Counted from the first letter of the stretch, positions 7,931-22,708 are shown. The stretch: DNA of 32,442 nt from a virus (IMGVR_UViG_3300023079_000008:1-32442), one strand, 5' to 3'. The notes: generated from the letters alone by a model not told the origin. Translations and numbers: made by a program.

Positions 7931-9293
7931 CTTGATAGTCCTTTGCCGTGGTGGGCTTTTCCTCTGGGGGCTCTGGCTTCTCAGCCTTGACGGGAGCGCC
8001 CGGTGGTTGAGTTGGAGCGCCCGGCATGCCCGGTGCCGCAGGAATTGCAGCGGCGGCCGACAGCGGCACCACCTGTTGCTGAACGCGCGGCTCGTCGCCG
8101 AAATCGACCGAGTCCATGCCCTCCAGATTCCGCGCTTCGTTCGGGCTGAAGATGCCGCCCTGCGTCGCGCGCACGAGGCCCTCGATGCGGTCGCGGAAGG
8201 CCGAGCGGAGCAGCGCCGCCGTGTCGAACTCGACATACTCGTCGGGCTGGCCCTTGAGATTGAACAGCAGGCCGTAGGCGTCCTCGATATGGTTGAGTGC
8301 AAACCCGAGACCGGACGCGACCCACGACTGCATCAAAAGCTCGGTCGAGGAGAACGCCGTGCCGCCGATGCCGAGAATCGCCAGCGGCACGCGGAACGCC
8401 AACGCGATCTTCTGGTCGGTCATCTTCATCACTTCGGCCAACTCGGAATCCTTGGAGTTGGACGACAGGATCATCGGCTTCAGGCCAGCGGTCAGGATCG
8501 GCGTGCCGCCCTGCTTCAGACCTTTCGACTGTTCGTCCCAGCGGTCGCGGATGAATTGCACCTGATCCTTGTCGAGGATCAGATCGGTGGTCAGCACGGC
8601 GGAGGGCCGCGCTTGGTTCATGTAGAACTGGATTTGTTGCGCGGTCATCGCATTCGACTGCGCAATGTCCTGCAGCGCCGACGCTATCGGCGTGTCGCCG
8701 ACCAACGGGAATGGATGCCGACGCCGCGTCGCATTGAGCCGGATGTGCAGCACGTCGCGCGCGGGCACAAGCAACGGCTCGGAGATCTGACGGTCGATCA
8801 CGTCGTTGCCCGCGAGGCGATAGAACACGTCGCCGGTCACCGCGACTTGCGGTGCGCTCTGGCGCGGGTCCATCAGATGCAGCTCGTCGATCTCAAAGCG
8901 GTCGTTGCGCAGCGCCAACGCGTAGGCGTTGCCGTCCGCATAGAGCGAGCGCGTCGCGTTCAACATGAAATCGGACGGCGACTGATAGGAATTCGGATAG
9001 CGCAGGATGCGTGACAGCGCCGACGTCGTGATGCGGTCGCGGCCCTTCTTGGCGTTCGCGCGCCAGTGATCGCCGGGGCACATCGCGACCGTCTGCGAGT
9101 AGGCCGATAGGCACGCCTCGACCATCGCCGAGGTGTCGCTGCCATAGATCGGGATGTCTGATTGCCACCAATTCCATGGCGAGTTGGCAGGCAGCCAGCC
9201 GCCGGTCACCGGCAGTTGATATGGGCCGGGACCAACTTCGCCCTCCCCCTTGGTCAGGAGAGGGCGAAGAATCCGCGCGAGCAGATTGGCCAC
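7863..9293 (-). CDS. Portal protein (HK97 family)
   Basis: A 476-residue protein with the HK97-type portal layout: an N-terminal wing ([16 protein letters not shown]), [20 protein letters not shown], the clip/stem region with [20 protein letters not shown] and [20 protein letters not shown], and the C-terminal [20 protein letters not shown], a hallmark of this family. The last 70 residues are Pro/Ala/Glu-rich. The portal is the dodecameric ring through which DNA enters and leaves the head. It uses GTG at 9293, eight bases after the preceding stop. Portal follows the capsid gene here, the reverse of the common portal-protease-capsid order. Confidence 0.96.
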
Positions 9294-11891: not shown

Positions 11892-11951
11892 GGCGAAACA
11901 CTCCACGTTTTCAGGGACCTAGACGCCCGGAAAAGATTTGTGAGGGACGTA

Positions 11952-11980
11952 TTGACCTATAGGCCGTATTAACCTACATC
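11952..11980 (+). promoter_or_regulatory. Accessory-block promoter P1
   Basis: TTGACC (11952) and TACATC (11975) are separated by 17 bases, a sigma-70-type layout. The spacer begins TATAGGCC, the left half of the palindrome shared by all six promoters; the right half (AACCTACA) is degenerate here. It drives the plus-strand genes from 12015 and lies in the divergent gap before the capsid gene. Confidence 0.75.
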
Positions 11981-11986
11981 AGGGGC

Positions 11987-12001
11987 AGGCCATTACGGCC
12001 T
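11987..12001 (+). promoter_or_regulatory. Operator-like palindrome just after P1
   Basis: AGGCC-N5-GGCCT, a perfect inverted repeat with the same five-base gap as the promoter palindromes, placed at the predicted transcription start of P1. It may compensate for the weak palindrome inside P1. Confidence 0.55.
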
Positions 12002-12014
12002 AAGGGGAGATGAA

Positions 12015-12437
12015 GTGATCAAGGTCAAATATTCCAGCGTCGATGGCGGTCGCAGTTCACGGCCATTCAAGTCGCTGAAGGGGGCGCGGAAGTTCGCGCA
12101 ACGGATGATCGGCAAGAACCCGGAGATGGGCTCGACCTACGCGGTGAGCGGCGACGGCATCGGCAAGATTCAAGTCGAGGGCTGCGCACTGGCCGAGCTG
12201 TTCGGCGACGAGAAGCCAACGGAAGCCACGGCCAGATATCTAGTCGTGAACGAGAACGCGCTTTGCTACCGCATCGAGGGCAGCATCCTGCACGGCGTTC
12301 TGGCAGGCAGCGTTTTGCGCGGCGGCCCCGATCCGATGACCGGCACCATTGCGGTCGCGCCCAGCGATGTCGTCCGCCCGGCGACCGTCGAGGACTTCGC
12401 GTTCTTCCGGGTCTCACCGAAAGGCCATCTCACATGA
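12015..12437 (+). CDS. Accessory-block protein of unknown function
   Basis: A 140-residue soluble protein starting at GTG with AGGGGAGA five bases before it. The N-terminal third is basic (SRPFKSLKGARKFAQRMIG), followed by AYAVSG-like beta sequence and a C-terminal domain (ALCYRIEGSILHGV). First gene of the plus-strand block, about 35 bases after P1, and its stop overlaps the next start (ATGA). I do not recognise the family. Position suggests an early gene. Confidence 0.75.
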   Translation: MIKVKYSSVDGGRSSRPFKSLKGARKFAQRMIGKNPEMGSTYAVSGDGIGKIQVEGCALAELFGDEKPTEATARYLVVNENALCYRIEGSILHGVLAGSVLRGGPDPMTGTIAVAPSDVVRPATVEDFAFFRVSPKGHLT

Positions 12438-12667
12438 CCGAAGATCAGGCAGTCGCGTGGATGGCCAAGCATGGCCACCTTGGATACGCGAACGAGATTC
12501 AGGCGCTGGAGGCCACCAAGTGGGAGACCATCGGCGAGGCTGGCCAGCACTGGCAGCACTGCCCGTTCATTCGGGAAAAGATCAAAGACATCGAAACCGA
12601 AATCGCCGAGGTCCGGCGCTCCGCGTGGGAGCGCTACGAGGACTGGCGCACAGATCCAATGAGCTGA
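12434..12667 (+). CDS. Small accessory protein of unknown function
   Basis: A 77-residue acidic, largely helical protein with Trp, His and Cys (AVAWMAKHGHLGYANEIQAL, then HWQHCPFIREKIKDIETEI). It starts at the ATG that overlaps the upstream stop, so it is translationally coupled to that gene. An open frame extends further upstream but only as a shadow of the preceding gene. No family recognised. Confidence 0.7.
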   Translation: MTEDQAVAWMAKHGHLGYANEIQALEATKWETIGEAGQHWQHCPFIREKIKDIETEIAEVRRSAWERYEDWRTDPMS

Positions 12668-12676
12668 GAGGACATC

Positions 12677-13021
12677 GTGAGACAGAAGCTGACCCAAGAG
12701 AAGTACGACAGCATCCCGACCCTGCTGGAGCAGGGTCTCAACAAGACCAAGATCGCCGAGCAGTTCGGCGTCACGACCGCGACTTTGATCGTGCAGTGCT
12801 CGCGGCGCGGCATCTCGTTATCGAGGCATGGCCGCCGGTTGCCGGTGCGCAGCCTGTCAATGCCGGACGCGCCGCTTGATCTGGAGCAGCCGGTGTTGGC
12901 CAAGCTGCGCGAACAGGCGCGCTTCCGTGGCACCAGCGAGATTGACCTGATCAAGCAATTGCTCCGGACAATCGTGCTCGACGATCTCTACACCGCCGTG
13001 CTCGACGAGGAACCTGCATAG
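12677..13021 (+). CDS. Small DNA-binding protein with HTH (GcrA-like fold) and C-terminal helical domain
   Basis: 114 residues from a GTG preceded by AGAGGA. Residues about 8-45 (KYDSIPTLLEQGLNKTKIAE, then QFGVTTATLIVQCSRRGISL) form a helix-turn-helix of the resolvase/GcrA type. The C-terminal part (EQARFRGTSEIDLIKQLLRT and VLDDLYTAVLDEE) matches in pattern the small protein at 27888-28106 (TTRLVRRLMQTIARDQLVLS, VLDDG), so this end is a module shared inside the phage. It is a candidate regulator of the block. It closes the P1 transcription unit; P2 lies directly after. Function is inferred. Confidence 0.7.
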   Translation: MRQKLTQEKYDSIPTLLEQGLNKTKIAEQFGVTTATLIVQCSRRGISLSRHGRRLPVRSLSMPDAPLDLEQPVLAKLREQARFRGTSEIDLIKQLLRTIVLDDLYTAVLDEEPA

Positions 13022-13036
13022 ATCACGAACCTGTGA

Positions 13037-13076
13037 TATAGGTCGTATTGACCTATAGGCCGTTCCGCCCTATATG
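13037..13076 (+). promoter_or_regulatory. Accessory-block promoter P2 with two overlapping operators
   Basis: TTGACC (13048) and TATATG (13071) with a 17-base spacer. Operator one, TATAGGTC-N5-GACCTATA at 13037-13057, is a perfect 8-base inverted repeat over the -35 box. Operator two, TATAGGCC-N5-GCCCTATA at 13054-13074, has one mismatch, covers the spacer and ends in the -10 box. They share the central TATA. Confidence 0.8.
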
Positions 13077-13127
13077 TTGGTGGTCGGGCGGCGGTGGTTC
13101 GCGGCCCCTGAGAAAGGGAGTTCCCCA

Positions 13128-13574
13128 GTGGAATACGGAAGTCTCCGCGAGAAGATTGCGGCCGAGAAAGCCGCTCGGCAGTCCAAGTACGCCGCGTTTG
13201 AGGCCGCCTATAGCAAGGCCGCTGAAGCCGGTCGTGCGGCCGGTGAGGCCAAGGTGCCCCAGCCGATGATGGTCGTGCAGCCCTCCAATCCGCTGAACGA
13301 TAAGAGCGTGCCGAAAGCCATGTGGCATGCGCCGGAAGGCATGTGCGGGTTCGCGTGGGTCAACGTCTCGCCCGGCAACTCCTCGTTCGCCAAGTGGCTG
13401 GTGAAGAACAAGCTGGCGCGGAAGGCATACGGCGGCGGCGTCGATATCTGGATCTCGGCCTTCAATCAGTCGGTCGAACGTAAGGAAGCCTGCGCCAACG
13501 CGATGGCCTCGGTGCTGAGCGCCGAACTCGGAAGCAACAGCCTCCGGATCTACGCTTCCAGCCGGTTGGACTAA
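13128..13574 (+). CDS. Phage protein of unknown function (GFAW...SRLD type)
   Basis: 148 residues. It starts at GTG in the leader AAAGGGAGTTCCCCAGTG, a leader nearly repeated at 18928-18942, which decides the start over an upstream in-frame ATG lying in P2. The N-terminus is an Ala/Lys-rich helix; the C-terminal domain has GMCGFAWVNVSPGNSSFAKW, GGGVDIWISAFNQSVERKEA and ends IYASSRLD. I have the impression this small alpha/beta domain recurs in many unrelated phages (tentative, from memory), with no known function. It is the first gene from P2. Confidence 0.8.
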   Translation: MEYGSLREKIAAEKAARQSKYAAFEAAYSKAAEAGRAAGEAKVPQPMMVVQPSNPLNDKSVPKAMWHAPEGMCGFAWVNVSPGNSSFAKWLVKNKLARKAYGGGVDIWISAFNQSVERKEACANAMASVLSAELGSNSLRIYASSRLD

Positions 13575-13578
13575 CTAA

Positions 13579-13603
13579 AAATCGTTCCCAACGAGAACGA
13601 TTT
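13579..13603 (+). terminator. Inverted repeat, possible weak terminator
   Basis: AAATCGTTC and GAACGATTT form a perfect 9-base stem around a 7-base loop, directly after the stop of the preceding gene. The right arm ends in TTT only, so termination would be weak; the symmetric A/T ends would suit either direction. Confidence 0.45.
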
Positions 13604-13606
13604 AAC

Positions 13607-13628
13607 GGGCGCGGCACGGACCGCGCCC
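13607..13628 (+). promoter_or_regulatory. GC-rich leader hairpin
   Basis: GGGCGCGG and CCGCGCCC form a perfect 8-base stem with a 6-base loop, just ahead of the AAAGGA ribosome binding site of a tiny membrane-peptide gene. Similar hairpins precede the genes at 20573, 20995 and 27793. Confidence 0.45.
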
Positions 13629-13642
13629 AGAAAGGAAAACAG

Positions 13643-13726
13643 GTGGAGCACTTCATCGACGGGTTCGTGCTGACAACGCTCTACCTCATTCCCACCCTGA
13701 TCGCCCTGCGCGTTTTGAACATCTAA
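13643..13726 (+). CDS. 27-residue membrane peptide
   Basis: GTG start with AAAGGA eight to ten bases before it. The peptide (VEHFIDGFVLTTLYLIPTLI, ending ALRVLNI) is essentially one membrane helix. Tightly placed: the next ribosome binding site begins directly after its stop. Function unknown; such peptides in phages can modulate host membrane proteins. Confidence 0.55.
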   Translation: MEHFIDGFVLTTLYLIPTLIALRVLNI

Positions 13727-13738
13727 CAGGAGAACGAA

Positions 13739-13939
13739 GTGGCCAAGAAGTTAAGCGAGAAGAAATTGAAAGCGATGGTGGCGGCTCGGATTCAGAGCGC
13801 CGTCTATGGATTTCTCATCCCGATGACGTCGATCCCCGCGCTGTATCGCCAGATGGAGGCGAAAGTCGCGGCTGGTGGATCGGACGAAGAGCTGAAGGCG
13901 GTGGTTGCCGCGTACCCCGGCGTTGAGCCGAGCGAGTAA
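13739..13939 (+). CDS. Small basic-acidic protein of unknown function
   Basis: 66 residues from GTG with AGGAGAAC eight bases before it. A Lys-rich N-terminal helix (KKLSEKKLKAMVAARIQSAV) is followed by a short hydrophobic stretch (YGFLIPMTSIPAL) and an Ala/Glu helix. Part of the P2 unit, 12 bases after the preceding stop and 11 before the next start. No family recognised. Confidence 0.65.
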   Translation: MAKKLSEKKLKAMVAARIQSAVYGFLIPMTSIPALYRQMEAKVAAGGSDEELKAVVAAYPGVEPSE

Positions 13940-13950
13940 AGGAGAGCGAA

Positions 13951-14571
13951 GTGGGTTGGACGTTTTATCACAAGCCGAAAGGCGTCAAGGCGGTTGACTC
14001 GATCATCGCCGGTTGCGGTCCCGAGTTTGCCAAGAAGATCGTGGCATCGAGCGCTACGCGCGAGGCGGTGTTTCTGGTGGCTCAATTCCACGAGCCCGCG
14101 AGCAAGGTCTACGTCCCCGACGCGGACGGCATGATCCGGGCGCTGCTGGTCTACGCGATCAAGTCGGTGCCCAAGGCAAGCGACGGTTACAATTTCGGTT
14201 ACAAGGACATGGAGGAAGGCATGGGGCCGTATGGCTGCCCCGCTCCGATGTCGATCATCGCCCAGTGCTCCGAGCTGCAGGACCCGATTGGCCCGCTGCC
14301 TGATTATTCCAGCCTCAAGTCTGCCCGCAACTACCGCGCCGGATCGGCGGCACACGCCGCCCGCATGAAGCTGAAGCGCGGCCTGAAGCCCGGCGACAAG
14401 GTGGTGCTGCCAGAGCCGCTGCTGTTCCGCGAGATCCCCTGCCAACGCTTCACGGTCGAGGTCTGCCGCGTCAAGGGACGCAAGGGCAAGAGCACGGTGT
14501 TTCGCGCCGAGAACGGCATGCTGTGCGGACTGAGCGCACGAAGCCTAGAAGGCGCGGTGGTGGAGGCATGA
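13951..14571 (+). CDS. DUF6927-like phage protein
   Basis: 206 residues from GTG with GGAGAGCGAA before it. The opening MGWTFYHKPKGVKAVDSI, the middle YNFGYKDMEEGMGPYGCPAP and the end (KPGDKVVLPEPLLF, RVKGRKGKSTVFRAENGMLC) match the pattern I associate with DUF6927, found in phages and mobile elements of actinobacteria and proteobacteria. The conserved part includes a beta-rich C-terminal barrel-like domain. Function unknown. Its stop overlaps the next start (ATGA). The family name is from memory and moderately certain. Confidence 0.75.
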   Translation: MGWTFYHKPKGVKAVDSIIAGCGPEFAKKIVASSATREAVFLVAQFHEPASKVYVPDADGMIRALLVYAIKSVPKASDGYNFGYKDMEEGMGPYGCPAPMSIIAQCSELQDPIGPLPDYSSLKSARNYRAGSAAHAARMKLKRGLKPGDKVVLPEPLLFREIPCQRFTVEVCRVKGRKGKSTVFRAENGMLCGLSARSLEGAVVEA

Positions 14572-14849
14572 GTCACCTATTCACCCTTGCCAAGGTCGCC
14601 AAACAGCACCTCGACAACGAATGCACTGCCGCCAGCGAGGCCCTCAACGCGGTCCCCGGCATCGGATCTGGCCCGATGGGCCTGACCCCGGACGCGGTCC
14701 GCGCCACGCCCGAATACCGGACCGCCAAGGCGGCGTTCGATGCCGCGTTCGCCGCGCTGCGAGACTTCAATGGCAAATTCAACAAGCAGTTTGCCGCCGA
14801 ATTAAGAGCCGAGCGCCGCGCGCGCGACCAAAAACGAAAAGGAGTCTGA
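14568..14849 (+). CDS. Small helical protein of unknown function
   Basis: 93 residues, starting at the ATG that overlaps the upstream stop. Mostly helical (FTLAKVAKQHLDNECTAASE; TAKAAFDAAFAALRDFNGKF) with a very basic C-terminus (ELRAERRARDQKRKGV), so nucleic acid contact is possible. Belongs to the P2 unit. Open frame upstream of 14568 is a shadow. Confidence 0.7.
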   Translation: MSHLFTLAKVAKQHLDNECTAASEALNAVPGIGSGPMGLTPDAVRATPEYRTAKAAFDAAFAALRDFNGKFNKQFAAELRAERRARDQKRKGV

Positions 14850-14855
14850 CCGACC

Positions 14856-15089
14856 ATGCCGACTTGGATTGAATCCACTGAAGAGCGCTACTGGTACGCC
14901 CTCGAATGTTTGCCACCCGCCTATCGCGCTGGCGGCGGCTTCCTGCTCGGCGAGGCTTACGATCACAACGCCATCGGCGAGCCGCGCTACCGCGCCTACG
15001 TCGAGGCCCCCGAAGGCACGTTCCGTGAATCAGTTGCGCCGATGACCGTCGCCGAATTCAAGGCCGCCAAGGCCGAGGGCTTCAAGTGA
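14856..15089 (+). CDS. DUF1419-like small protein
   Basis: 77 residues. YWYALECLPPAYRAGGGFLL followed by GEAYDH resembles the core of DUF1419, a family of small proteins on rhizobial plasmids and prophages; the C-terminus (VAPMTVAEFKAAKAEGFK) also fits. It supports a Rhizobiales-type host. Function unknown. Its stop overlaps the next start (GTGA). Start ATG at 14856 is preceded by AAAGGAGTCTGACCGACC. Confidence 0.7.
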   Translation: MPTWIESTEERYWYALECLPPAYRAGGGFLLGEAYDHNAIGEPRYRAYVEAPEGTFRESVAPMTVAEFKAAKAEGFK

Positions 15090-15223
15090 GCGTTCACGAC
15101 GAGGCCGACGAGATCCGCGAGCGGATCGAGGATCTCGACATCCTGCTGGAGGCCCTGCGGCAGACGTCCGAAACACTGGCCGTATTTTTACGGCCTCCGA
15201 AACCGCGCGACGTTAAGGATTAA
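15086..15223 (+). CDS. 45-residue acidic coiled-coil protein
   Basis: GTG start overlapping the upstream TGA (GTGA). The first 30 residues form an acidic amphipathic helix (DEADEIRERIEDLDILLEAL), then a short basic Pro-rich tail. The gene contains the perfect hairpin GGCCGTA-TTTT-TACGGCC (15178-15195). Last gene of the P2 unit. Too short to name. Confidence 0.55.
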   Translation: MSVHDEADEIRERIEDLDILLEALRQTSETLAVFLRPPKPRDVKD

Positions 15224-15234
15224 CATCCGCTCGT

Positions 15235-15263
15235 TTGCCACATAGGCCGCTATGGCCTATACC
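15235..15263 (+). promoter_or_regulatory. Accessory-block promoter P3
   Basis: TTGCCA (15235) and TATACC (15258), 17-base spacer. The spacer holds ATAGGCC-N5-GGCCTAT (15242-15260), a perfect 7-base inverted repeat whose right arm enters the -10 box, exactly as in the other five promoters. Confidence 0.8.
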
Positions 15264-15321
15264 TAACTTGAACGAAAGCGCATGACGCGCTGTCAACCCC
15301 AGAGGAGAACGGACCAACACC

Positions 15322-15717
15322 ATGTCACTAGATCGCAAGATGCGCCGCAACAAGCTGCGCAAGCCCTACATCGACAAGAAGACCGGCAACAAGGTGGTGC
15401 CGCTGTCGCCGGAGGCGGTTGATGCCCTGAAGCGGCAGATGCAGGCCTTCAAGGACAAGTTCGGGCGCGAGCCGGAAGGCGACGAGCCGATCTTTTTTGA
15501 TCCCGACTTCGACACACCCACCCCGTGGGATGAAGCGAAGTTCAACAAGATCATGATCGAGAACATGGCCCGCGCTGGCATCCGCGAAGAGCTGATCTAC
15601 GCCTATGCCCGTACCGGCATGATGGTCAGCACCCAGAACGAACATCAGTGGTCGAAAGCCGACATCGCCGAGTGGAATGCCGCGCTCGCAGAATTCGACG
15701 CGATGGAAGCGGCCTGA
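15322..15717 (+). CDS. Phage protein of unknown function
   Basis: 131 residues, basic N-terminus (DRKMRRNKLRKPYIDKKTGN) followed by FKDKFGREPEGDEPIFFDPD and a helical end (IREELIYAYARTGMMVSTQN). The FGREPEGDEPIFFDPD segment looks like a conserved motif of small phage and plasmid proteins, but I know no function. First gene after P3, with GAGGAGAACGG in the leader. The stop overlaps the next start (TGATG). Confidence 0.75.
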   Translation: MSLDRKMRRNKLRKPYIDKKTGNKVVPLSPEAVDALKRQMQAFKDKFGREPEGDEPIFFDPDFDTPTPWDEAKFNKIMIENMARAGIREELIYAYARTGMMVSTQNEHQWSKADIAEWNAALAEFDAMEAA

Positions 15718-16013
15718 TGCAAACCTTCAAGAACCTTCCGGCGGCAGCGGAGGCCGCGAATGGCCTTCCGATCCTGCACGTCAACAGCGGCATGGACACG
15801 CTCTACATCGTGCTCGACGGCAACGTCGATGACATGAAGCGGGCCGAAGTCGCGCTGCTGACCCCGTGCGACGACCGCGAGCAGCGCCACGTCGCCGCCG
15901 GTCATTTGATGCTTGAGCATCTCGACCGGCTCGGCAATGCGAACTGGGCGACCATGACGCGCCCTACCCGGATCAACGCCTTCCCGCGCCCGCGCGCGGC
16001 CTATGGTGAGTGA
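15717..16013 (+). CDS. Small protein of unknown function
   Basis: 98 residues starting at the ATG overlapping the upstream TGA. Alternating alpha and beta segments (FKNLPAAAEAANGLPILHVN; DTLYIVLDGNVDDMKRAEVA), a compact single domain with several His. Part of the P3 unit. No family recognised. Confidence 0.7.
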   Translation: MQTFKNLPAAAEAANGLPILHVNSGMDTLYIVLDGNVDDMKRAEVALLTPCDDREQRHVAAGHLMLEHLDRLGNANWATMTRPTRINAFPRPRAAYGE

Positions 16014-16155
16014 CATGCTGCGAGACATCATCACCCTGACCCCCGAAGAGCGCGCCGCACTGGTCGCGATCTCGCGCATGAACCGGCCGAATGCCAAGCA
16101 ACGCCGCGCGATGGAAGCGATCAAGCGGGCCTATCGCGAGCGCGAGGCCGCGTGA
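16003..16155 (+). CDS. 50-residue basic helical protein
   Basis: ATG at 16003, with a possible later ATG at 16015; both overlap or abut the upstream stop. Sequence LRDIITLTPEERAALVAISR then NRPNAKQRRAMEAIKRAYRE: two basic helices typical of small nucleic acid-binding proteins. Its stop overlaps the next start. Function unknown. Confidence 0.6.
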   Translation: MVSDMLRDIITLTPEERAALVAISRMNRPNAKQRRAMEAIKRAYREREAA

Positions 16156-16406
16156 TGAACACCCCCTGCGCGCATTACGGCGTGGCGTCGAAGGTTGTCC
16201 ATCACGGCCAGATCAAGCATCACATTCTGGTGCTCGGTCCGCTGATCGATCACCCGCACCTCGTCAATTCCGGCGATCAGGAATATGCCGACGCGCTTTG
16301 CAACAGGATGCGCAAGGCGGCGGCTCAATGCCCGGTCCCCAACCACGAAAGGATCTACAGCGTCGTACCGTTGCCGATGACGGGCGGGAGCGACGGCGAT
16401 GCATGA
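16155..16406 (+). CDS. Small His/Cys-containing protein of unknown function
   Basis: 83 residues from the ATG overlapping the previous stop. Rich in His and Cys (CAHYGVASKVVHHGQIKHHI; CNRMRKAAAQCPVPNH), so metal binding is possible but not shown. The 3' end overlaps the GIY-YIG gene start by eight bases. P3 unit. Confidence 0.65.
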   Translation: MNTPCAHYGVASKVVHHGQIKHHILVLGPLIDHPHLVNSGDQEYADALCNRMRKAAAQCPVPNHERIYSVVPLPMTGGSDGDA

Positions 16407-17337
16407 TCAGATTCGCAGCATCGTCGGCGAGCCGCTGGAGTATTACGGCGGCGGCATCTATCAGATTCAGCTTCTCGGCACGGACCGCTGTTATGTCGGA
16501 CGCTCCATTGGCGTTGGCGGTCGCCTGTTTGATCACGTCAAGGCGTTGCTGCTCAACAAGCACGGCAACCCAAAGCTCCAGCGGGCTTGGAATAAATACG
16601 GCCATGACCGCTTCGCTTTCAAGATCCTGCAGAAGGTTGATCCTGCAGAACTGGCCACGGCCGAGCAGAGCTGGATCAATCACTTCCAAGCGGCGTCCAT
16701 CGGCTTTAACATTGTCCCGCTGGTTACCCCCTACGCTCCAATCGACGGTTCGGACCCGAACGTCATCAAGTACCGGCACGCGCTGGATGCGGTCTCGTTT
16801 GCTATGGCCCTTATCGGCGGCGATCAGCTCCCCAAGAAAAAGCGCATTCAGCTTGAGGATTGCCTGCACTGGAATGCCTACGCGCTCAGCATGCTGAAGA
16901 CGTTTCCGCAAGAAATGATCAAGGCCCGGACGACGGCCCGCATTGACGAGGCCCTCAACTACGCGAACGGCCGGATCAAAAAGACCGGCAACCAAACGCT
17001 GATGCCCTACATGGCCGCGCCGGAATCGTACCCGCACGACGCGTCAATGCCGTTGGACCTCTTCCAAAAACTGACGAACGATCTCGCCATGCGAATGAGC
17101 TTCCATAAGGAATGGGAAGCGGCGGCGCTCAAGATGTACAAGCAACGCGCCAGCGCAATCGTCGGCGAGAACGAAGTCAAGCGCCAATGGCGCGCTGTGA
17201 ACTTCGGCGGCGGTCTCATAGGCGATGGCAATTTCATAGAATGGTGCCAGAGCATCGGCGTCAAACAACCTACCGGCGATGAACTGCGGGCCGCCGGACT
17301 GGTGACGTGGGAGTGGAAAAAACGAGAGGCCGCGTGA
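16399..17337 (+). CDS. GIY-YIG endonuclease 1
   Basis: 312 residues. The N-terminal 100 residues form a GIY-YIG nuclease: GIY at 19-21, YVG at 32-34 followed by Arg35, Arg42, His46, Asn57 and Glu89, the metal-binding glutamate. All key positions are kept. The 200-residue C-terminal part is helical, with no recognisable NUMOD or zinc finger, and may recognise DNA. It could be a homing endonuclease or a nuclease attacking host or rival phage DNA. It is followed at once by a second GIY-YIG gene with only an overlapping TGATG between them. Confidence 0.88.
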   Translation: MHDQIRSIVGEPLEYYGGGIYQIQLLGTDRCYVGRSIGVGGRLFDHVKALLLNKHGNPKLQRAWNKYGHDRFAFKILQKVDPAELATAEQSWINHFQAASIGFNIVPLVTPYAPIDGSDPNVIKYRHALDAVSFAMALIGGDQLPKKKRIQLEDCLHWNAYALSMLKTFPQEMIKARTTARIDEALNYANGRIKKTGNQTLMPYMAAPESYPHDASMPLDLFQKLTNDLAMRMSFHKEWEAAALKMYKQRASAIVGENEVKRQWRAVNFGGGLIGDGNFIEWCQSIGVKQPTGDELRAAGLVTWEWKKREAA

Positions 17338-18077
17338 TGCGTCCAAAGAAATTCAATCCGGAAAACCTGCGGAAGGTCAAACCTATCAGCGGGATCTACA
17401 TGATCACCGGACCAGATAAATGTCGTTATATCGGGCAGGCATCAATCTGCAGAACGTCCAACGTACAAAAGCGTCTGAAGACACATTTAAGCATGCTGGT
17501 CAGTGCCACTGCATCGCACCATAATAATCATCTGCAGAATGCTTGGAATTTGTACGGCGCAGACGCTTTCACATTTCAGATTTTGTGCGAAGCGCCTGCT
17601 GACCAACTGGACGAGGCCGAACAACATTGGACCGACTATTATAAAGCACGCAAGAGTGGCGTTTATAACATTTCACCAATCGCTGGCTCACAACGTGGCT
17701 TCAGACATTCGGAAAAAACCAAGGCCGAATACTCTAGGCAACGACGTGGAAATCAGCATGCGCTCGGCAACCGGCACACGCCGGAATTCATCGACCGCTT
17801 TAGAAAGAGCGTCAGCAAACCGCAGTCGGAAGAACACAAAGAAAAACGCCGTCAGTTCAAAACTGAATGGTGGCGAGATCCGGCGCGGGATGCGCAGAGG
17901 GCTGCAATTGCCGAGCGCAACCGCAGCACGGTCTGGACTCCAGCGCGGAGAACGAAACTCAGCAACGCGATGAAGCGCCGCGCACCGACGCTCTGGACCG
18001 ACGAGATGAGAGCAAAGCTCAGTGCAGCGCAGAAGAAACGCTGGGCGAAAGTCCGGGCCGCGAAGGCAGGCAAATGA
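17337..18077 (+). CDS. GIY-YIG homing endonuclease 2 with NUMOD3-like repeats
   Basis: 246 residues from the ATG overlapping the upstream stop. GIY at 19-21, YIGQ at 31-34, Arg46, His50, Asn64 and Glu95 complete the nuclease site. Residues about 122-225 hold repeated short basic motifs (GFRHSEKTKAEYSRQRRGNQ; SKPQSEEHKEKRRQ; TDEMRAKLSAAQKKRW) like the NUMOD3 DNA-binding modules of homing endonucleases. The coding sequence is visibly richer in A/T than its neighbours, which suggests later arrival by transfer. The first 90 residues align with nuclease 1 in pattern, but the C-termini differ. Confidence 0.9.
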   Translation: MRPKKFNPENLRKVKPISGIYMITGPDKCRYIGQASICRTSNVQKRLKTHLSMLVSATASHHNNHLQNAWNLYGADAFTFQILCEAPADQLDEAEQHWTDYYKARKSGVYNISPIAGSQRGFRHSEKTKAEYSRQRRGNQHALGNRHTPEFIDRFRKSVSKPQSEEHKEKRRQFKTEWWRDPARDAQRAAIAERNRSTVWTPARRTKLSNAMKRRAPTLWTDEMRAKLSAAQKKRWAKVRAAKAGK

Positions 18078-18277
18078 TCGTCCTGCTCGTTCTCTTCCTC
18101 CTGCTCGTGCTGCTGTTCTGGTGGTGCCGCCGCGCGCCCGCGTACTACCCGAACCGCTGGGACTCCGATTGCGAGCACTACTGCGAAACCGATTGCGACG
18201 GCGGCGGCGCGGATCACGACTACGACGACGGCGGCGGCTACGACGACTGTCAGGACGACGGCGGATCTGACGATTAA
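18074..18277 (+). CDS. Small membrane protein with acidic Cys/Gly/Asp tail
   Basis: 67 residues. A single hydrophobic helix (IVLLVLFLLLVLLFWWCRR) is followed by a tail of Asp, Gly and Tyr with four Cys (NRWDSDCEHYCETDCDGGG). Likely inner-membrane anchored with the acidic tail outside or inside; metal binding is possible. The ATG overlaps the preceding stop (ATGA). It ends the P3 unit. Role unknown. Confidence 0.65.
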   Translation: MIVLLVLFLLLVLLFWWCRRAPAYYPNRWDSDCEHYCETDCDGGGADHDYDDGGGYDDCQDDGGSDD

Positions 18278-18304
18278 CCATCGCCCAAAAGTCGCTTATC
18301 CGCT

Positions 18305-18333
18305 CTTGCATATAGGCCGGAATGGCCTATACT
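18305..18333 (+). promoter_or_regulatory. Accessory-block promoter P4
   Basis: CTTGCA (18305) and TATACT (18328), 17-base spacer. The spacer and first four bases of the -10 box form the perfect palindrome TATAGGCC-N5-GGCCTATA (18311-18331), the best copy in the window. It lies inside the longest open frame of the next gene, which shows that the real start is downstream. Confidence 0.82.
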
Positions 18334-18357
18334 GAGCTTGAAAGGAGGTACAGGGTC

Positions 18358-18867
18358 ATGGAACCCCTAGTCCGGAAGGCCCACGAGTTCGCCGAGAAGG
18401 CGCACGCCGGGGTGTTCCGTCAATACACGGGCGAGCCCTATGTCGAGCACGTCAAGCGGGTTGCCGCCAGCGTTGCCGCGCTAGGGTTCGGTCCTGAAGT
18501 GGTCGCCGCCGCCGTGCTGCACGACGTGATCGAGGATTGCGAAGTCAGCGAGGCCGAGCTGGCCGCCGAATTCAGCCCCAAGGTCGCCGCGCTGGTGGCC
18601 GAGGTATCAAACCCCAAGATCCCCAAGGCACCCGGCAACAGGCCGTTCCGGAAGGCCGCCGAGAAGGCCCATCTGGCTGGCGCGTCCTATGAGGGCGCTT
18701 CGATCAAGCTGGCCGATATGATCGACAACTCGTCAAACCTCGCCGAGCACGATCCTGCGTTCGCTCAAGTGTATCTGAGCGAAATGGTCAGCCGTGCCGC
18801 GCTGGTCGCCCATGGCCACCCGGAACTGGTGGCAAGGCTGCAAAAGAATCTTCAGAAATACCGCTAG
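18358..18867 (+). CDS. MESH1/SpoT-type HD-domain hydrolase (small alarmone hydrolase-like)
   Basis: 169 residues, the size of stand-alone MESH1-type (p)ppGpp hydrolases. The HD-site residues are all present: YTGEPYVEHV with His31, AAVLHDVIED with His55, Asp56, Glu59 and Asp60, and SIKLADMIDN with Asp120 and Asn124. In the SpoT/MESH1 family these bind a divalent metal and remove the 3'-pyrophosphate of (p)ppGpp; some members also act on NADPH. No synthetase or TGS domain is attached. The longest frame begins at 18322, but that ATG lies in the P4 -10 region, whereas the ATG at 18358 follows AAAGGAGGT by eight bases. It is the only gene between P4 and P5, so it can be expressed alone. Substrate is inferred. 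Confidence 0.88.
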   Translation: MEPLVRKAHEFAEKAHAGVFRQYTGEPYVEHVKRVAASVAALGFGPEVVAAAVLHDVIEDCEVSEAELAAEFSPKVAALVAEVSNPKIPKAPGNRPFRKAAEKAHLAGASYEGASIKLADMIDNSSNLAEHDPAFAQVYLSEMVSRAALVAHGHPELVARLQKNLQKYR

Positions 18868-18873
18868 GCCCTA

Positions 18874-18902
18874 TTGACCTATAGGCCGGAACGACCTATA
18901 TT
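18874..18902 (+). promoter_or_regulatory. Accessory-block promoter P5
   Basis: TTGACC (18874) and TATATT (18897), 17-base spacer. TATAGGCC-N5-GACCTATA (18880-18900) has one mismatch. A partial second palindrome (TAGGCC-N5-GACCTA) lies over the -35 box, as in P2. The promoter starts seven bases after the hydrolase stop codon. Confidence 0.8.
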
Positions 18903-18939
18903 CCCTTTGTTGGTTCGGGAAAGAAAAAGGAGTTCCCCA

Positions 18940-19029
18940 GTGTCATTGGTCGCCAAGCTCGTCAACAAGTTCCTCAATGCCATGGTGGCAGCGTTTTTCG
19001 AAGGTTCGCACGCCTACAAGGAGGCCTAA
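18940..19029 (+). CDS. 29-residue peptide
   Basis: GTG start in the leader AAAAAGGAGTTCCCCAGTG, almost identical to the leader of the gene at 13128. The peptide (VSLVAKLVNKFLNAMVAAFF, ending EGSHAYKEA) is an amphipathic or weakly membrane-seeking helix. It may be a leader peptide or a real small protein; the strong ribosome binding site favours translation. Confidence 0.5.
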   Translation: MSLVAKLVNKFLNAMVAAFFEGSHAYKEA

Positions 19030-19032
19030 TCA

Positions 19033-19602
19033 GTGGCTGAATATCTCTCCTGCTCCGCGACCGCCAAGCTGGTCCGTGTCGCGCTCAAGAAGGCCTTCCC
19101 CGGCATCAAGTTCTCGGTGCGCTCCAGCGTCTATTCCGGCGGCGCGTCGATCCGGGTTGGCTGGACCGATGGTCCGTCCTCCAAGGCCGTCAAGGCGGTT
19201 GCCGGTGCCTACGCGGGCGGTGGCTTCGACGGCATGATCGACATGGCCTACTCGGTCGAGGCGTGGCTGCTGCCCGATGGCTCGGCGTCGTTTGCTTCGT
19301 CCCCCGGCACGACCGGATCGCGGGGCGTCTATGAGCCCTTTGACAATCCGGCTCCGGCTCCCGGTGCCAAGAAGGTTCGGTTCGGCGCGGACTACGTGTT
19401 TTGCGAAAAGGAATATTCGGTCGAGGTCTACTCGGCTGCGGTCGCAACGGTCTGCGCGGACTACGGCGTCGAGATCCCTGAAATCAAGGTCAGCGAATTC
19501 GGCGGCACGCCGTTCATCGGTGGCTATCACCCGGTGCCCAATGCTGGCGAAGAGCTGAGCACGCTGGTCTACCGCGAACTGCAAAAGGAGAATCACGCGT
19601 GA
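19033..19602 (+). CDS. LPD29-domain protein
   Basis: 189 residues from GTG at 19033. The N-terminal 60 residues (EYLSCSATAKLVRVALKKAF, then FSVRSSVYSGGASIRVGWTD) match the large polyvalent protein-associated domain LPD29 seen in phage and conjugative-element polyvalent proteins; FDGMIDMAYSVEAW continues it. Polyvalent-protein domains usually act in host cells soon after entry, but LPD29 has no known activity. The C-terminal half is alpha/beta with FVFCEKEYSVEVYSAAV-like strands. The stop overlaps the next start (GTGA). Confidence 0.85.
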   Translation: MAEYLSCSATAKLVRVALKKAFPGIKFSVRSSVYSGGASIRVGWTDGPSSKAVKAVAGAYAGGGFDGMIDMAYSVEAWLLPDGSASFASSPGTTGSRGVYEPFDNPAPAPGAKKVRFGADYVFCEKEYSVEVYSAAVATVCADYGVEIPEIKVSEFGGTPFIGGYHPVPNAGEELSTLVYRELQKENHA

Positions 19603-20126
19603 AGAAAGATGACGAATACGGCCTCTTGATCGACCGGGTCAACGAGTACGGCTCCGAGAAGGTCACGGTGCATGTGGTGCGCCGCCGCGAGGCGGATGGC
19701 AACGTGCCGCTGGGCTGCTCCGGCGATGGCGAACTCTATGCGGGCTATGGCTGCCCGAAGCATCTGCTCGGACTCATCGTCGATGGCCTCGGCATGTACG
19801 GGTTCGTCAGCGACAGCGATGGCGAGTACATCGGCTACGGTGTCGAATTCCGCAACGTCTATTCCATCGACGCGGCCAAGCTCGGCCGCATGCTGAAGGC
19901 GATCAAGCGGGTCAATGCGCGGATCGAAAAGGACGACGCCCGCGAGCCCGGCGACAAGTTCATGGCGCTGGCCAATGCGCTGAAGCTCTCGTTCGCGGTC
20001 TGCCGGATCGGCGAGCGCCGGGCAAATCCGGACTGGCGCTTCATGTCCATCGCGGAAGGCCGCAACACCTACCGCCAGATGATCGAGACCGCGAGCGCTG
20101 AAGTGCTCGCGCGCAAGGTCGCTTAA
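19599..20126 (+). CDS. Protein of unknown function
   Basis: 175 residues from the GTG overlapping the preceding TGA. A strand-rich N-terminus (EKVTVHVVRRREADGNVPLG) leads into LYAGYGCPKHLLGLIVDGLG and a helical C-terminal half (AKLGRMLKAIKRVNARIEKD). Soluble. It is coupled to the LPD29 gene, so the two may act together. Family not recognised. Confidence 0.75.
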   Translation: MKKDDEYGLLIDRVNEYGSEKVTVHVVRRREADGNVPLGCSGDGELYAGYGCPKHLLGLIVDGLGMYGFVSDSDGEYIGYGVEFRNVYSIDAAKLGRMLKAIKRVNARIEKDDAREPGDKFMALANALKLSFAVCRIGERRANPDWRFMSIAEGRNTYRQMIETASAEVLARKVA

Positions 20127-20150
20127 CCCATGTCAACAGGAGCAACACCC

Positions 20151-20495
20151 ATGCAACCACCACCAATCCCGACACGGCCAAAGCCAAAATCAAACGATCT
20201 GGCGAAGGCCCTTGTGGCGACGCTGGCCGCCTTCGTGATCTTCGGCGTTATCGGCAACGGTGTCAGCGACGACAAGGTCAGCACCAAAGTCGCCGCGCCA
20301 CCGCAAACCACCGCAGCAGAGAATGACAAGCCCTCGTCACTCTGTGACTCGATCACGCGCTGGAAGGGCAACAAGCTCTCAGCCAACCCGTCGCCAGCAG
20401 AGGCGCGGGCTTGGAAGGCAGAGCTGGACGCCAAGCTAAACAACCCGGTCTGGGTCAAGTGCATGACCGACAAATATGGCTCGCTGCTCAATTGA
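20151..20495 (+). CDS. Single-pass membrane protein of unknown function
   Basis: 114 residues. Pro-rich, Lys-containing N-terminus, then one membrane helix (ALVATLAAFVIFGVIGNGV) at about residues 20-38, then a periplasmic-like domain with two Cys (SSLCDSITRWKG; VWVKCMTDKY) that could form a disulfide. The ATG at 20151 is eight bases after ACAGGAG; an upstream in-frame ATG at 20130 lacks such a site. First of four consecutive exported or membrane products or near neighbours in the P5 unit. Confidence 0.75.
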   Translation: MQPPPIPTRPKPKSNDLAKALVATLAAFVIFGVIGNGVSDDKVSTKVAAPPQTTAAENDKPSSLCDSITRWKGNKLSANPSPAEARAWKAELDAKLNNPVWVKCMTDKYGSLLN

Positions 20496-20505
20496 CCTTT
20501 CGCCG

Positions 20506-20560
20506 CTGCGCACCCGGTGCGCAGAACGAAGCGCCAATTCCGGCAACTTCAAAACAGGAG
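20506..20560 (+). promoter_or_regulatory. Leader element A: hairpin plus conserved pre-RBS segment
   Basis: CTGCGCACC-C-GGTGCGCAG (20506-20524) is a perfect 9-base stem, followed by ACGAAGCGCCA...CCGG..ACTTCA..AACAGGAGA. The same order and much of the same sequence occur in element B ahead of the gene at 20995. Confidence 0.6.
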
Positions 20561-20572
20561 ACTGCAACAACG

Positions 20573-20917
20573 ATGCGTAAATTTATCATTGCCGCCACCG
20601 CCCTCGCTCTGATGTCCGGTGCCGCGTTCGCCAAGGACGAGAAGCCCGACTATGCGGGCGACAAGGAAAAATATTCCTGCGGCGACGAGACGCTCAGCAA
20701 GTACATGAAGGCGCTCTACAACGACTCCGGCCCCAGCCTGTTCAGGATGGAAGTGCTCTACGTCAAGGACGCCTCTGAGATGAAGCGCTCTGCCGACGAG
20801 CTGCGTTGCAAGGCGACCATCGTGCATGCGCGCGGCAAGGTCGCTGGCGTGGTCGCGTACACCTACGAAGACGGTCACGCCCTGATCGCCTTCAAGCCCG
20901 GTAGCGGCAAGCGCTGA
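20573..20917 (+). CDS. Secreted small protein of unknown function
   Basis: 114 residues with a clear cleavable signal peptide (MRKFIIAATALALMSGAAFA, then KDEK). The mature part has two Cys (YSCGDETLSKYM; LRCKATIVHA) and ends VAYTYEDGHALIAFKPGSG, a compact periplasmic domain likely with one disulfide. The longer open frame upstream is a shadow; this ATG follows ACAGGAG. Located after leader element A. Role unknown; periplasmic phage proteins can block superinfection. Confidence 0.78.
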   Translation: MRKFIIAATALALMSGAAFAKDEKPDYAGDKEKYSCGDETLSKYMKALYNDSGPSLFRMEVLYVKDASEMKRSADELRCKATIVHARGKVAGVVAYTYEDGHALIAFKPGSGKR

Positions 20918-20925
20918 CGTTTCGA

Positions 20926-20986
20926 CTGTCGCCCTGCGGGCGGCAGCACGAAGCGCCATCCCGGTGACTTCACCAACAGGAGAATA
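20926..20986 (+). promoter_or_regulatory. Leader element B: hairpin plus conserved pre-RBS segment
   Basis: CTGTCGCCC-TGC-GGGCGGCAG (20926-20946) forms a 9-base stem with one G-U pair, followed by CACGAAGCGCCATCCCGG, TGACTTCACC and AACAGGAGA. It is a diverged copy of element A with compensatory changes in the stem. Confidence 0.6.
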
Positions 20987-20994
20987 CACGACCC

Positions 20995-21201
20995 ATGAAA
21001 TCGATTGCGAAACTACTGCACGACCTCGCCGTCTGCATTCACTTGCGGACCGTCGCCGACGAGCACGGCGTGGTGACCAACAAGGCGATCCGGCTCGCCT
21101 ATGGCAGCAATACCCCATCGTCCCGCAGCCGCATTGAGCGACTGATCAAGCTCGGGATGATCGAAGTTGCCGGTCGCAACCGCTACCGCCTGATCGACTG
21201 A
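20995..21201 (+). CDS. Small winged-helix-like DNA-binding protein
   Basis: 68 residues. KLLHDLAVCIHLRTVADEHG, then NKAIRLAYGS and SRSRIERLIKLGMIEVAGRN followed by RYRLID, gives helix-helix-recognition helix and a two-strand wing, the outline of a minimal winged helix. A candidate regulator for the block. ATG at 20995 after AACAGGAGAATACACGACCC. Confidence 0.65.
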   Translation: MKSIAKLLHDLAVCIHLRTVADEHGVVTNKAIRLAYGSNTPSSRSRIERLIKLGMIEVAGRNRYRLID

Positions 21202-21237
21202 ACACACCCAAACCCAACAGTAACAGGAGTAACTGAA

Positions 21238-21441
21238 TTGATACGACGACCCGTGACGAGGATCATCCTCGCCTTCGTTTTCTTTGGCTCACTGGCGGCG
21301 GCCTTCGCTGCCAGCAGCAACAGCTTCAATGATCGCTGGACGACAGCGCGCGACGACGTGGTGGCAGCGCAGCGGGACATCCCGCAGCAGAAGCTGCACG
21401 ACCGTGCGTTGGAGATCCTGCGCAACATGGAGGCGAAATAA
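21238..21441 (+). CDS. Small exported or membrane-anchored protein
   Basis: 67 residues from TTG at 21238, eight bases after ACAGGAGT; a GTG five codons later is an alternative. N-terminal RRPVTRIILAFVFFGSLAAA is a signal peptide or anchor, followed by an amphipathic helix (FNDRWTTARDDVVAAQRDIP). Its stop touches the next start (TAAATG). No family recognised. Confidence 0.65.
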   Translation: MIRRPVTRIILAFVFFGSLAAAFAASSNSFNDRWTTARDDVVAAQRDIPQQKLHDRALEILRNMEAK

Positions 21442-22143
21442 ATGAAGCGCACTTCCCTCGCCGTCGCCGCGTTGCTGATCAGCACCGTTGCGGCCTCCGC
21501 CTACGATCTGACGTGCGCCGCGCCGCGTGTCGCGCTCGGCGACGACCCTCGCGATGACAACCCGGTGGTCAGCGTCGAGATCAAATTCGTCCCGGAGGAG
21601 CATCTCTGGCGCGTCTTCCATCACCTCGCCGATGGCCTCGTGGTCTCGCGCTCGGAGCAGTACGCGATTCAGGATGCCTCGACCGATAACAAGGCGCAGT
21701 GGCAAGGCACGTTGAACCGGGCGCGGCATCTCACCATGGTCGGCGAGATCAAGCGCGTCGATGGCGCGCTGGTCTATCTGGAGTGGCTGTACGACCGCAA
21801 GAAGAACGATCAGCTCGTGATGCACGCCGCCGCGCGTTGCACCAAGACGGCACCCCCGCCGCCGGTAGCAACGATGTGGTTTCAAGTGCCGCCCTACGCC
21901 AGCAACGGGATCTTGAACGTCCGCCGAGGCCCCGGCGTCAACCACGGGCTGGTCGGCGTGATCCCGGCCGGACAAGTCGTCAGCGCCTCGCGCTGCACGC
22001 CGCGCGATGACGGCACCGTGGGTGCCGACTGGTGTCTGGTGTCTTGGAATGGCATCACCGGCTGGGCCTCGCAGGCCGTGCTGCTGCCGATCCAGCAGGA
22101 GCAGCAGGCACCCGCCCCGCGCATCCCGCGACCGACGTCGTAA
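21442..22143 (+). CDS. Secreted bacterial SH3-domain protein
   Basis: 233 residues. Signal peptide (MKRTSLAVAALLISTVAASA), a first domain of about 110 residues with strand-rich sequence (VSVEIKFVPEEHLWRVFHHL), a Pro linker, then an SH3b domain at about 152-216 (GILNVRRGPGVNHGLVGVIP, WCLVSWNGITGWASQAVL) and a Pro-rich tail. SH3b domains bind peptidoglycan or proteins in the envelope. No catalytic lysis domain is present. Likely periplasmic, acting on the host envelope or on superinfecting phage. Starts directly after the preceding stop. Confidence 0.83.
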   Translation: MKRTSLAVAALLISTVAASAYDLTCAAPRVALGDDPRDDNPVVSVEIKFVPEEHLWRVFHHLADGLVVSRSEQYAIQDASTDNKAQWQGTLNRARHLTMVGEIKRVDGALVYLEWLYDRKKNDQLVMHAAARCTKTAPPPPVATMWFQVPPYASNGILNVRRGPGVNHGLVGVIPAGQVVSASRCTPRDDGTVGADWCLVSWNGITGWASQAVLLPIQQEQQAPAPRIPRPTS

Positions 22144-22167
22144 TGGGCAGCATCCCAGTGGGCCGTC

Positions 22168-22196
22168 TTGCCAAATTGGCCAGAACGGCCTATATG
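22168..22196 (+). promoter_or_regulatory. Accessory-block promoter P6
   Basis: TTGCCA (22168) and TATATG (22191), 17-base spacer. AATTGGCC-N5-GGCCTATA (22174-22194) keeps the GGCC-N5-GGCC core and register. It drives the HTH gene that follows, with the start predicted near 22203. Confidence 0.75.
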
Positions 22197-22229
22197 GGTG
22201 ATTCCATGTCTCTAACTGCAGGCGGACCA

Positions 22230-22490
22230 ATGACCGCAGACGAATATCGCGCCGCGCTCGATAAGCTCGGCATCAATCAACAGGCTGCGAGCCGTTTCTT
22301 TGGCGTCGGCGCGCGGACCTCGCGGCGTTGGGTGGCGGGCGAAGCGCGCATCCCCAACCCGGTGGCCATGCTGCTGCAACTGATGGTAAAAAAGAAGCTC
22401 AAGCTGGAGATCCCGGTCTGGAATGAAGAGGCACAAGCCTTCGACCGAAGCCAGATCTGGTTGCTGCAGGCGTCCAACAAGCTGGAGTGA
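22230..22490 (+). CDS. HTH regulator (XRE/Cro-like), candidate controller of the palindromic promoters
   Basis: 86 residues. EYRAALDKLGINQQAASRFF then GVGARTSRRWVAGEARIPNP is a Cro/C1-type helix-turn-helix with the recognition helix around ARTSRRW; the rest is a helical and strand end (KKKLKLEIPVWNEEAQAFDR). The ATG at 22230 has AGGCGG just upstream; the ATG at 22206 lies about three bases from the predicted P6 transcription start and would be leaderless. As a DNA-binding protein made from a promoter that itself carries the palindrome, it is a natural candidate for an autoregulated repressor of P1-P6. This is inference. Confidence 0.78.
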   Translation: MTADEYRAALDKLGINQQAASRFFGVGARTSRRWVAGEARIPNPVAMLLQLMVKKKLKLEIPVWNEEAQAFDRSQIWLLQASNKLE

Positions 22491-22495
22491 GCGCG

Positions 22496-22708
22496 ATGGC
22501 AGAACCGTTCTATGGCAGCTTCGACGGCCTCGCCTGTCGCTACACCGCGAGCGAAGGCTGGGTTCTCCATGACGACTGGGTGCAGCTCAACAGCTCCTCG
22601 GTCAACAACGCTGCGCGCGAACTGACGCGCGCGGAATTCGAACAGCTCTTCCCGGATGCGCCGCCGCTCCCGGCGGACGCGTTCAAAGCCTCGGCCGTCC
22701 GTCCGTGA
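22496..22708 (+). CDS. Small protein of unknown function at the end of the accessory block
   Basis: 70 residues from the ATG at 22496, eight bases after GGAG; a GTG at 22487 overlaps the upstream stop and is possible. Acidic, with FYGSFDGLACRYTASEGWVL and LTRAEFEQLFPDAPPLPAD. Its 3' end overlaps the end of the minus-strand gene by 26 bases, so the two transcripts converge here. No family recognised. Confidence 0.65.
   Translation: MAEPFYGSFDGLACRYTASEGWVLHDDWVQLNSSSVNNAARELTRAEFEQLFPDAPPLPADAFKASAVRP

Follow-up and report, generated by a model that had tools for sequence, protein, structure and literature searches.

Palindromic operators in the early promoters

The window analyzed here, IMGVR_UViG_3300023079_000008, is an entire IMG/VR virus record of 32,442 bases from a soil phage, which is probably a fragment because end repeats were not detected. 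The minus strand encodes the sheath, portal, head protein, and large terminase of a contractile-tailed phage, and the plus strand contains small early-type genes from about 12 to 22.7 kb. Our subject is a family of palindromic operators in the promoters of these early genes, together with a helix-turn-helix (HTH) protein of 86 amino acids, encoded on the plus strand at positions 22230-22490 (alternative start at 22206), which is the most likely binder of the operators.

The operator consensus is a palindrome of 21 base pairs (bp), TATAGGCC-N5-GGCCTATA, located inside sigma-70-type promoters. There are 6 such promoters, P1 to P6, all on the plus strand, and the operator in each of them, O1, fills the promoter spacer plus the first 4 bases of the -10 box. 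P1 (11952-11980) consists of the -35 box TTGACC (11952-11957), the O1 sequence TATAGGCCGTATTAACCTACA (11958-11978), and the -10 box TACATC. The corresponding elements are TTGACC, O1 at 13054-13074, and TATATG in P2 (13048-13076); TTGCCA, O1 at 15241-15261, and TATACC in P3 (15235-15263); and TTGACC, O1 at 18880-18900, and TATATT in P5 (18874-18902). P4 (18305-18333) has O1 at 18311-18331 and the -10 box TATACT, and its best -35 box is TTGCAT with a spacer of 16 bp. P6 (22168-22196), the promoter of the HTH gene, has the boxes TTGCCA and TATATG and a weaker, asymmetric O1, AATTGGCCAGAACGGCCTATA (22174-22194). The number of mismatches to the consensus is zero in P4, one each in P2, P3, and P5, 2 in P6, and 3 in P1.

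Two of the promoters contain a second full operator, O2, which is a tandem copy placed 17 bp upstream of O1, shares the bases TATA with it, and covers the -35 box. These copies are TATAGGTCGTATTGACCTATA at 13037-13057 in P2, which is kept in the related phage G008 at position 7190, and GCTAGGCCCTATTGACCTATA at 18863-18883 in P5. P1 has a weak partial O2 (11941-11961; 9.9 bits), of which only the right half, GACCTATA (11954), is present. Furthermore, the leader of P1 contains a short perfect palindrome, AGGCC-ATTAC-GGCCT (11987-12001), a possible extra operator, and G008 has a comparable second palindrome (6068) just downstream of its first promoter.

A search for TATAGGCCN5GGCCTATA with up to 3 mismatches gave 8 matches in the window as compared to 0.02 expected, and none of 100 shuffled sequences reached 8. 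In a matrix scan, the sites scored 16.6 to 28.2 bits, while the best position in the window outside the operator arrays scored 8.4 bits. An earlier sequence-only reading had placed all 6 palindromes correctly and had rightly seen them ahead of plus-strand genes only, which is true of all sites. It had seen the motif nowhere else in the window and had missed the 2 full O2 operators, which bring the number of sites to 8. The spacer of exactly 17 bases that it gave for all 6 promoters applies to 5 of them, P4 having the better -35 box at 16 bp, shifted by one base from the shared register, and the P3 operator that it singled out as nearly perfect is equaled by those of P2 and P5. The promoters are best written as CTTGAC-N17-CTATAT, matching the sigma-70 consensus of Sinorhizobium meliloti (PMC2573895), a match that suggests an alphaproteobacterial host without proving it.

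Conservation and covariation in related phages

When 2.9 million viral contigs were scanned, exact copies of the operator were found in 20 stretches, many of which came from contigs with multiple copies. In the multi-copy contigs, the copies were all oriented alike and placed in a single register behind TTGAC. With tandem copies counted, there were 6 to 11 copies per whole record in G004, G005, G006, G007, G008, G010, G013, and G014, almost all of which were located in the early region, upstream of genes. The sequence-only reading had held that a real regulon should keep the motif while the flanks diverge, and that random placement across genomes would speak against it; we found the same register in about a dozen related phages, with diverging bases around it, and an early-region clustering instead of random placement.

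In a column profile of 55 distinct promoters, the -35 box, O1, and the -10 box were conserved, with little conservation further upstream except for ATAYGAC at positions -16 to -10, which corresponds to the left half of O2. The dyad-symmetric bases of the spacer (GGCC/GGCC) were conserved as strongly as the -35 box. The mean complementarity at an O1-O2 offset of 17 bp was 4.67 of 8, compared to 1.0 to 2.6 at the other 27 offsets tried, and by this measure the 17-bp offset is specific. It was also noted that the aligned promoters of G004, G014, and other relatives have a conserved TG at +28/+29 from the start of O1 (69% and 85%), 7 to 8 bases past TATAT, which is perhaps part of the start region.

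The HTH gene at 22230 recurred in 9 of the 12 gene-called operator-bearing records in an all-against-all comparison. A profile search was positive for 21 of another 23 records; these 23 were chosen partly for their HTH homologs, and the informative part, selected by operator, had the gene in 9 of 11 records. In most relatives, among them G006, G013, G014, G036, and G042, the gene is preceded by an in-register operator that is asymmetric and weaker, such as TTTTGGAC-AAAAC-GGCCTATA, of which P6 is the version in the window, and in most contigs the operator of this promoter is of the matching class. The 86-amino acid protein is considered the most likely binder because its gene co-occurs with the operators, because its own promoter contains an operator, and because changes in its recognition helix track those in the operator sequence. 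The sequence-only reading had listed it as one of 3 candidates, and the comparative evidence favors this choice. The other 2, the products of 12677 (a resolvase-type HTH protein) and 20995, were set aside, as neither had a recognizable homolog in the operator-bearing relatives searched.

The HTH of the 22230 product consists of helices at residues 17-24 and 28-36, the latter being the recognition helix, and the putative specificity positions are 27, 30, and 32. The protein of the window has G at position 27, and that of G025 has Q at position 32. The operators of the relatives fall into the classes TATAGGCC, TATAGGGC, TATACGNC, TATACGCC, and TATAGGWC. In all of these the register behind TTGAC is kept and both arms change symmetrically, and the symmetric changes fit a dimeric binder. 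Among the contigs with both an operator and the HTH gene in the available DNA, residue 32 was Q in 10 of 10 contigs with TATACGNC operators, in which base 5 is C, and in none of the 20 others (Fisher p 3e-8), and residue 27 was D in all 7 contigs with pure TATAGGGC operators, whereas the 13 remaining GG-class contigs, the mixed ones among them, all had another residue there (Fisher p 1e-5), these p-values ignoring the relatedness of the contigs. On the tree, the GGCC and GGGC labels required 4 changes each, at least 3 of which were forced by well-supported branches. G036 (D27, GGGC) nests among members that are otherwise all GGCC or mixed, and L063 and L086 (G27, GGCC) were placed beside GGGC rows. 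The correspondence between residues and bases appears to identify the residues that set the target sequence.

Aca10 offers a further comparison. In its own promoter (TTGCAA-N16-TATTCT), this protein binds the dyad AATACGCTCATTGAGCGTATT, which is 21 bp long and spans the -35 and -10 boxes, and residue Q37 contributes to binding (PMC9410881). The site is of the same length and in nearly the same register as the operators described here, and its half-site is of the TATACGCC class (TACGC-type). Q37 aligns with position 32 of the 22230 family, where Q is expected for this class. The correlation was already in place when this match came to notice, which makes the match an independent, though single, check.

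Four contigs with HTH genes of other subfamilies (L301, L354, L362, and L366) were excluded from the covariation table; 3 of the 4 also had D27, fitting the pattern. In each of them a single TATAGGGCC-N3-GGCCCTATA palindrome keeps the same promoter register beside the HTH gene (L301 4365, L354 2419, L362 2691, and L366 3803), possibly representing a related but separate type of autorepressor.

A proposed Aca-like repressor of the early gene set and its alternatives

We propose, with a probability of about 0.85, that the palindromes serve as operators for the 22230-22490 product, which would be an Aca-like autorepressor encoded by the phage, with a regulon that spans the early promoters, and which would shut the early set off. 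The operators, their register and conservation, their co-occurrence with the HTH gene, and the covariation of helix and operator are features of the sequences themselves, from which we infer binding, dimerization, repression, and its timing. Early in infection, the host RNA polymerase with sigma-70 would fire the 6 strong CTTGAC-N17-CTATAT promoters and thereby express single genes or short groups of genes, including the regulator gene behind P6. A dimer of the regulator would then bind O1, filling the spacer and the first 4 bases of the -10 box, and in P2 and P5 a second dimer would occupy O2, 17 bp upstream and over the -35 box. The bound dimers would exclude RNA polymerase, resulting in a joint shut-off of the early set, and the weaker operator in P6 would allow the regulator to be made last and to set its own level.

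The closest assignment for the 22230 product is a small HTH protein with an Aca-like fold. In a Foldseek search with the predicted model (mean predicted local distance difference test score of 77), the nearest solved folds were Aca2, Aca1, Aca10, HigA2, and MqsA, with a template modeling score of about 0.6 for the Aca hits, and profile searches gave weak matches only, to MqsA, Xre-like HTH proteins, Aca10, and Aca2. Aca families in general act by repression through an inverted repeat in the core promoter (PMC9410906), and P6 and its counterparts in most relatives likewise place an inverted repeat inside the core promoter of the regulator's own gene. Like Aca10, Aca1, and Aca2, the protein is a small HTH protein from a phage or mobile element, and the palindromic operator spans the -35 and -10 boxes of a strong promoter. 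However, the published Aca proteins have been shown to act on their own acr-aca operon, whereas the operators described here occur in up to 11 promoters per genome, with tandem interleaved sites and, in 3 relatives, 2 paralogs. Nor was an anti-CRISPR (Acr) gene identified here, in scans made without an Acr library. The HTH domain has its best family match to MqsA-type antitoxins (PF15731, TIGR03830), below the curated cut-offs, but the 86-amino acid protein lacks their zinc-binding N-terminal domain. An MqsRA toxin-antitoxin system was rejected, since only the C-terminal HTH matches, below cut-off, and since neither of the 2 adjoining open reading frames (ORFs) scanned, 21442-22143 (SH3_3) and 22487-22708, had a toxin match or was recognizable as MqsR.

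Several observations weigh against this interpretation. The C-terminal part of the predicted model is of low confidence, and the E-values of the Aca match in the Foldseek and PDB profile searches are weak, about 0.01 to 0.1. G005, G008, G011, and some short contigs, all of which are fragments, contain no HTH gene, G007 has no operator directly upstream of its HTH gene, and for many HTH homologs of other phages no such operator was detected within the stretches examined. The window record also ends short of the module in which G004 and G007 encode a second HTH. Finally, the class C helices form one clade on the tree, and the correlation between position 32 and base 5 may therefore represent a single event, so that repeated switching is clearly seen only for position 27 and base 7 in this comparison.

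The sequence-only reading had suggested a dimeric regulator in the spacer that silences or remodels all 6 promoters. Comparative evidence supports the regulon and the dimer, and of the 2 modes of action silencing is the likelier one, because the 17-bp spacer is already optimal. That the HTH protein binds but acts as an activator or switch that remodels the promoter is very unlikely: a site that fills the spacer is indeed familiar from MerR-type promoters, and tandem sites could recruit or reorient the polymerase, but a 17-bp spacer and hexamers that fit the S. meliloti consensus leave no need for correction, the first 4 bases of the -10 box lie within the operator, and every tested Aca repressor of this geometry represses (PMC9410906). 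Remodeling of the MerR type in particular was discarded, as the spacer is 17 bp (16 bp at P4) and not an over-long 19 to 20 bp. Even less credible is the idea that the motif is simply a shared strong promoter. Conserved promoter motifs are common among phages, but the GGCC/GGCC dyad is as conserved as the -35 box, changes symmetrically, and covaries with the HTH helix.

More weight, although still on the improbable side, is given to the alternative that the HTH protein is a lysogenic immunity repressor, which would keep the early promoters silent in a prophage instead of shutting them off late in infection. An integrase is present in G004, G017, G037, G039, G041, and other operator-bearing relatives, and immunity repressors with multiple operators are known, as in the stoperators of mycobacteriophage L5 (PMC6550527). 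However, no integrase match was found in G007 (53 kb), G032 (82 kb), G014, or G005, a survey of prophages recovered the pattern in only 1 of 385 alphaproteobacterial genomes, and the regulator is encoded by one of the last early-region genes, itself under an operator of its own. The L5 system is similar in that one repressor has many genomic sites and in that motif and specificity diverge together (PMC6550527), but its stoperators are asymmetric, mostly located outside promoters, and block elongation. A stoperator reading was rejected here, as the sites are symmetric dyads within promoters. The promoters being of the host sigma-70 type, it could also be argued that the phage has borrowed the operator of a host transcription factor. 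We consider this highly improbable, as the operator class follows the phage HTH and not the host group, and as the 65 bacterial hits are isolated, with the exception of L063 and L086. Both of these have tandem operators at a -35 box, and in both a gene of the 22230 HTH family lies nearby, on the same side. A host origin of the motif was rejected on the same grounds. These 2 tandem arrays lie at about 7830-7867 in L063 and about 1087-1123 in L086, in contigs labeled gamma- and alphaproteobacterial, respectively.

The best reading of the sequence data seems to be an Aca-like autorepression that takes in an entire early regulon, with operators that are interleaved, and in some relatives it may involve 2 proteins. 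G004 and G007 each encode an RTxRRW protein and an RQxQR protein, and in both phages the O1 sites are of the GG class and the O2 sites mostly of the TA[CT]G class. The O2 sites of G032 are similar, and a second HTH of the RQxQR type was predicted from them and then found (RQSQR). O1 and O2 are of one class in the window, G008, G041, G009, and most sites of G017, and TAYG-type O2 sites are present in G014, G005, G006, and G013, with no second HTH within these records, all of which may be incomplete. The comparison suggests that 2 paralogous regulators act on interleaved sites in each promoter in the relatives that have both proteins, because O1 and O2 differ in specificity where the RTxRRW and RQxQR regulators both occur. 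By extension, and with about even chances of being right, each early promoter of this group of phages may be a 2-input node, in which 2 paralogous HTH repressors with separable specificities read O1 in the spacer and O2 over the -35 box, 17 bp apart with a shared TATA, and in which specificity diversifies via positions 27, 30, and 32, leading to repeated regulon-wide switches. The arrangement is reminiscent of lambda CI and Cro, 2 related HTH proteins with overlapping operators on early promoters, but CI and Cro share their operators, whereas O1 and O2 would have separate specificities and are repeated at each early promoter.

The known Aca-like repressors act as brakes on individual anti-CRISPR operons, and here the same geometry would govern the early genes of a group of phages that has no close relative in the annotated phage collection searched: no near relative was found there by DNA, none by the protein of the 13128 gene, and the head protein had matches only at less than 60% identity. 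The correspondence between residues and bases could serve as a readable and testable specificity code, linking regulators to regulons in other phages.

Genes behind the operators and neighboring features

The regulon genes are small and mostly without an assigned name, and the operator serves as a tag for early genes, which makes many of the unnamed ones candidates for anti-defense or takeover functions, an approach already taken with SIRV2. A parallel is found in SIRV2, where a conserved regulatory sequence precedes 11 of 13 early genes, including that of the proposed repressor, Aca8, and likewise marks small genes of unknown function (PMC11065993). SIRV2 is an unrelated virus with archaeal TATA/BRE promoters and a winged-HTH protein, in contrast to the sigma-70 promoters and the Xre/MqsA-like HTH of the phages studied here.

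All genes behind the promoters are on the plus strand. P1 is followed by 12015-12437 (phrog_11458), 12434-12667, and 12677-13021 (HTH_7), and P2 by a segment (13128-15223) with the genes 13128-13574, 13739-13939, and 13951-14571 (DUF6927) and small ORFs. Of the 12 records compared, 10 have kept the 13128-13574 gene. In L113, L114, and L120, its homolog is preceded at a distance of about 100 bp by a different promoter, TTGACA-N17-TGTAAT as read in L120, the spacer of which contains the unrelated repeat ATCAC-N4-GTGAT, which suggests that the whole regulator-operator pair has been replaced. The genes behind P3 (15340-16155) are 15340-15717, 15717-16013, and 16003-16155. The single gene behind P4, at 18358-18867, encodes an HD-domain phosphohydrolase; it sits behind the sole perfect operator, was kept in 8 of the 12 records compared, and is a candidate for an early takeover or anti-defense gene. 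Behind P5 (19033-22143) are 19033-19602 (phrog_15549), 19599-20126, and then several small ORFs.

Between P3 and P4, the plus strand also contains a gene for a GIY-YIG homing endonuclease (17307-18077, also NUMOD3-like), adjoined by an ORF at 16399-17337 that looks similar. On the minus strand, a gene for a collagen-like (Gly-X-Y) tail fiber is located at 6335-8302; the longest ORF overlaps the portal gene, and the true start is probably near 7882.

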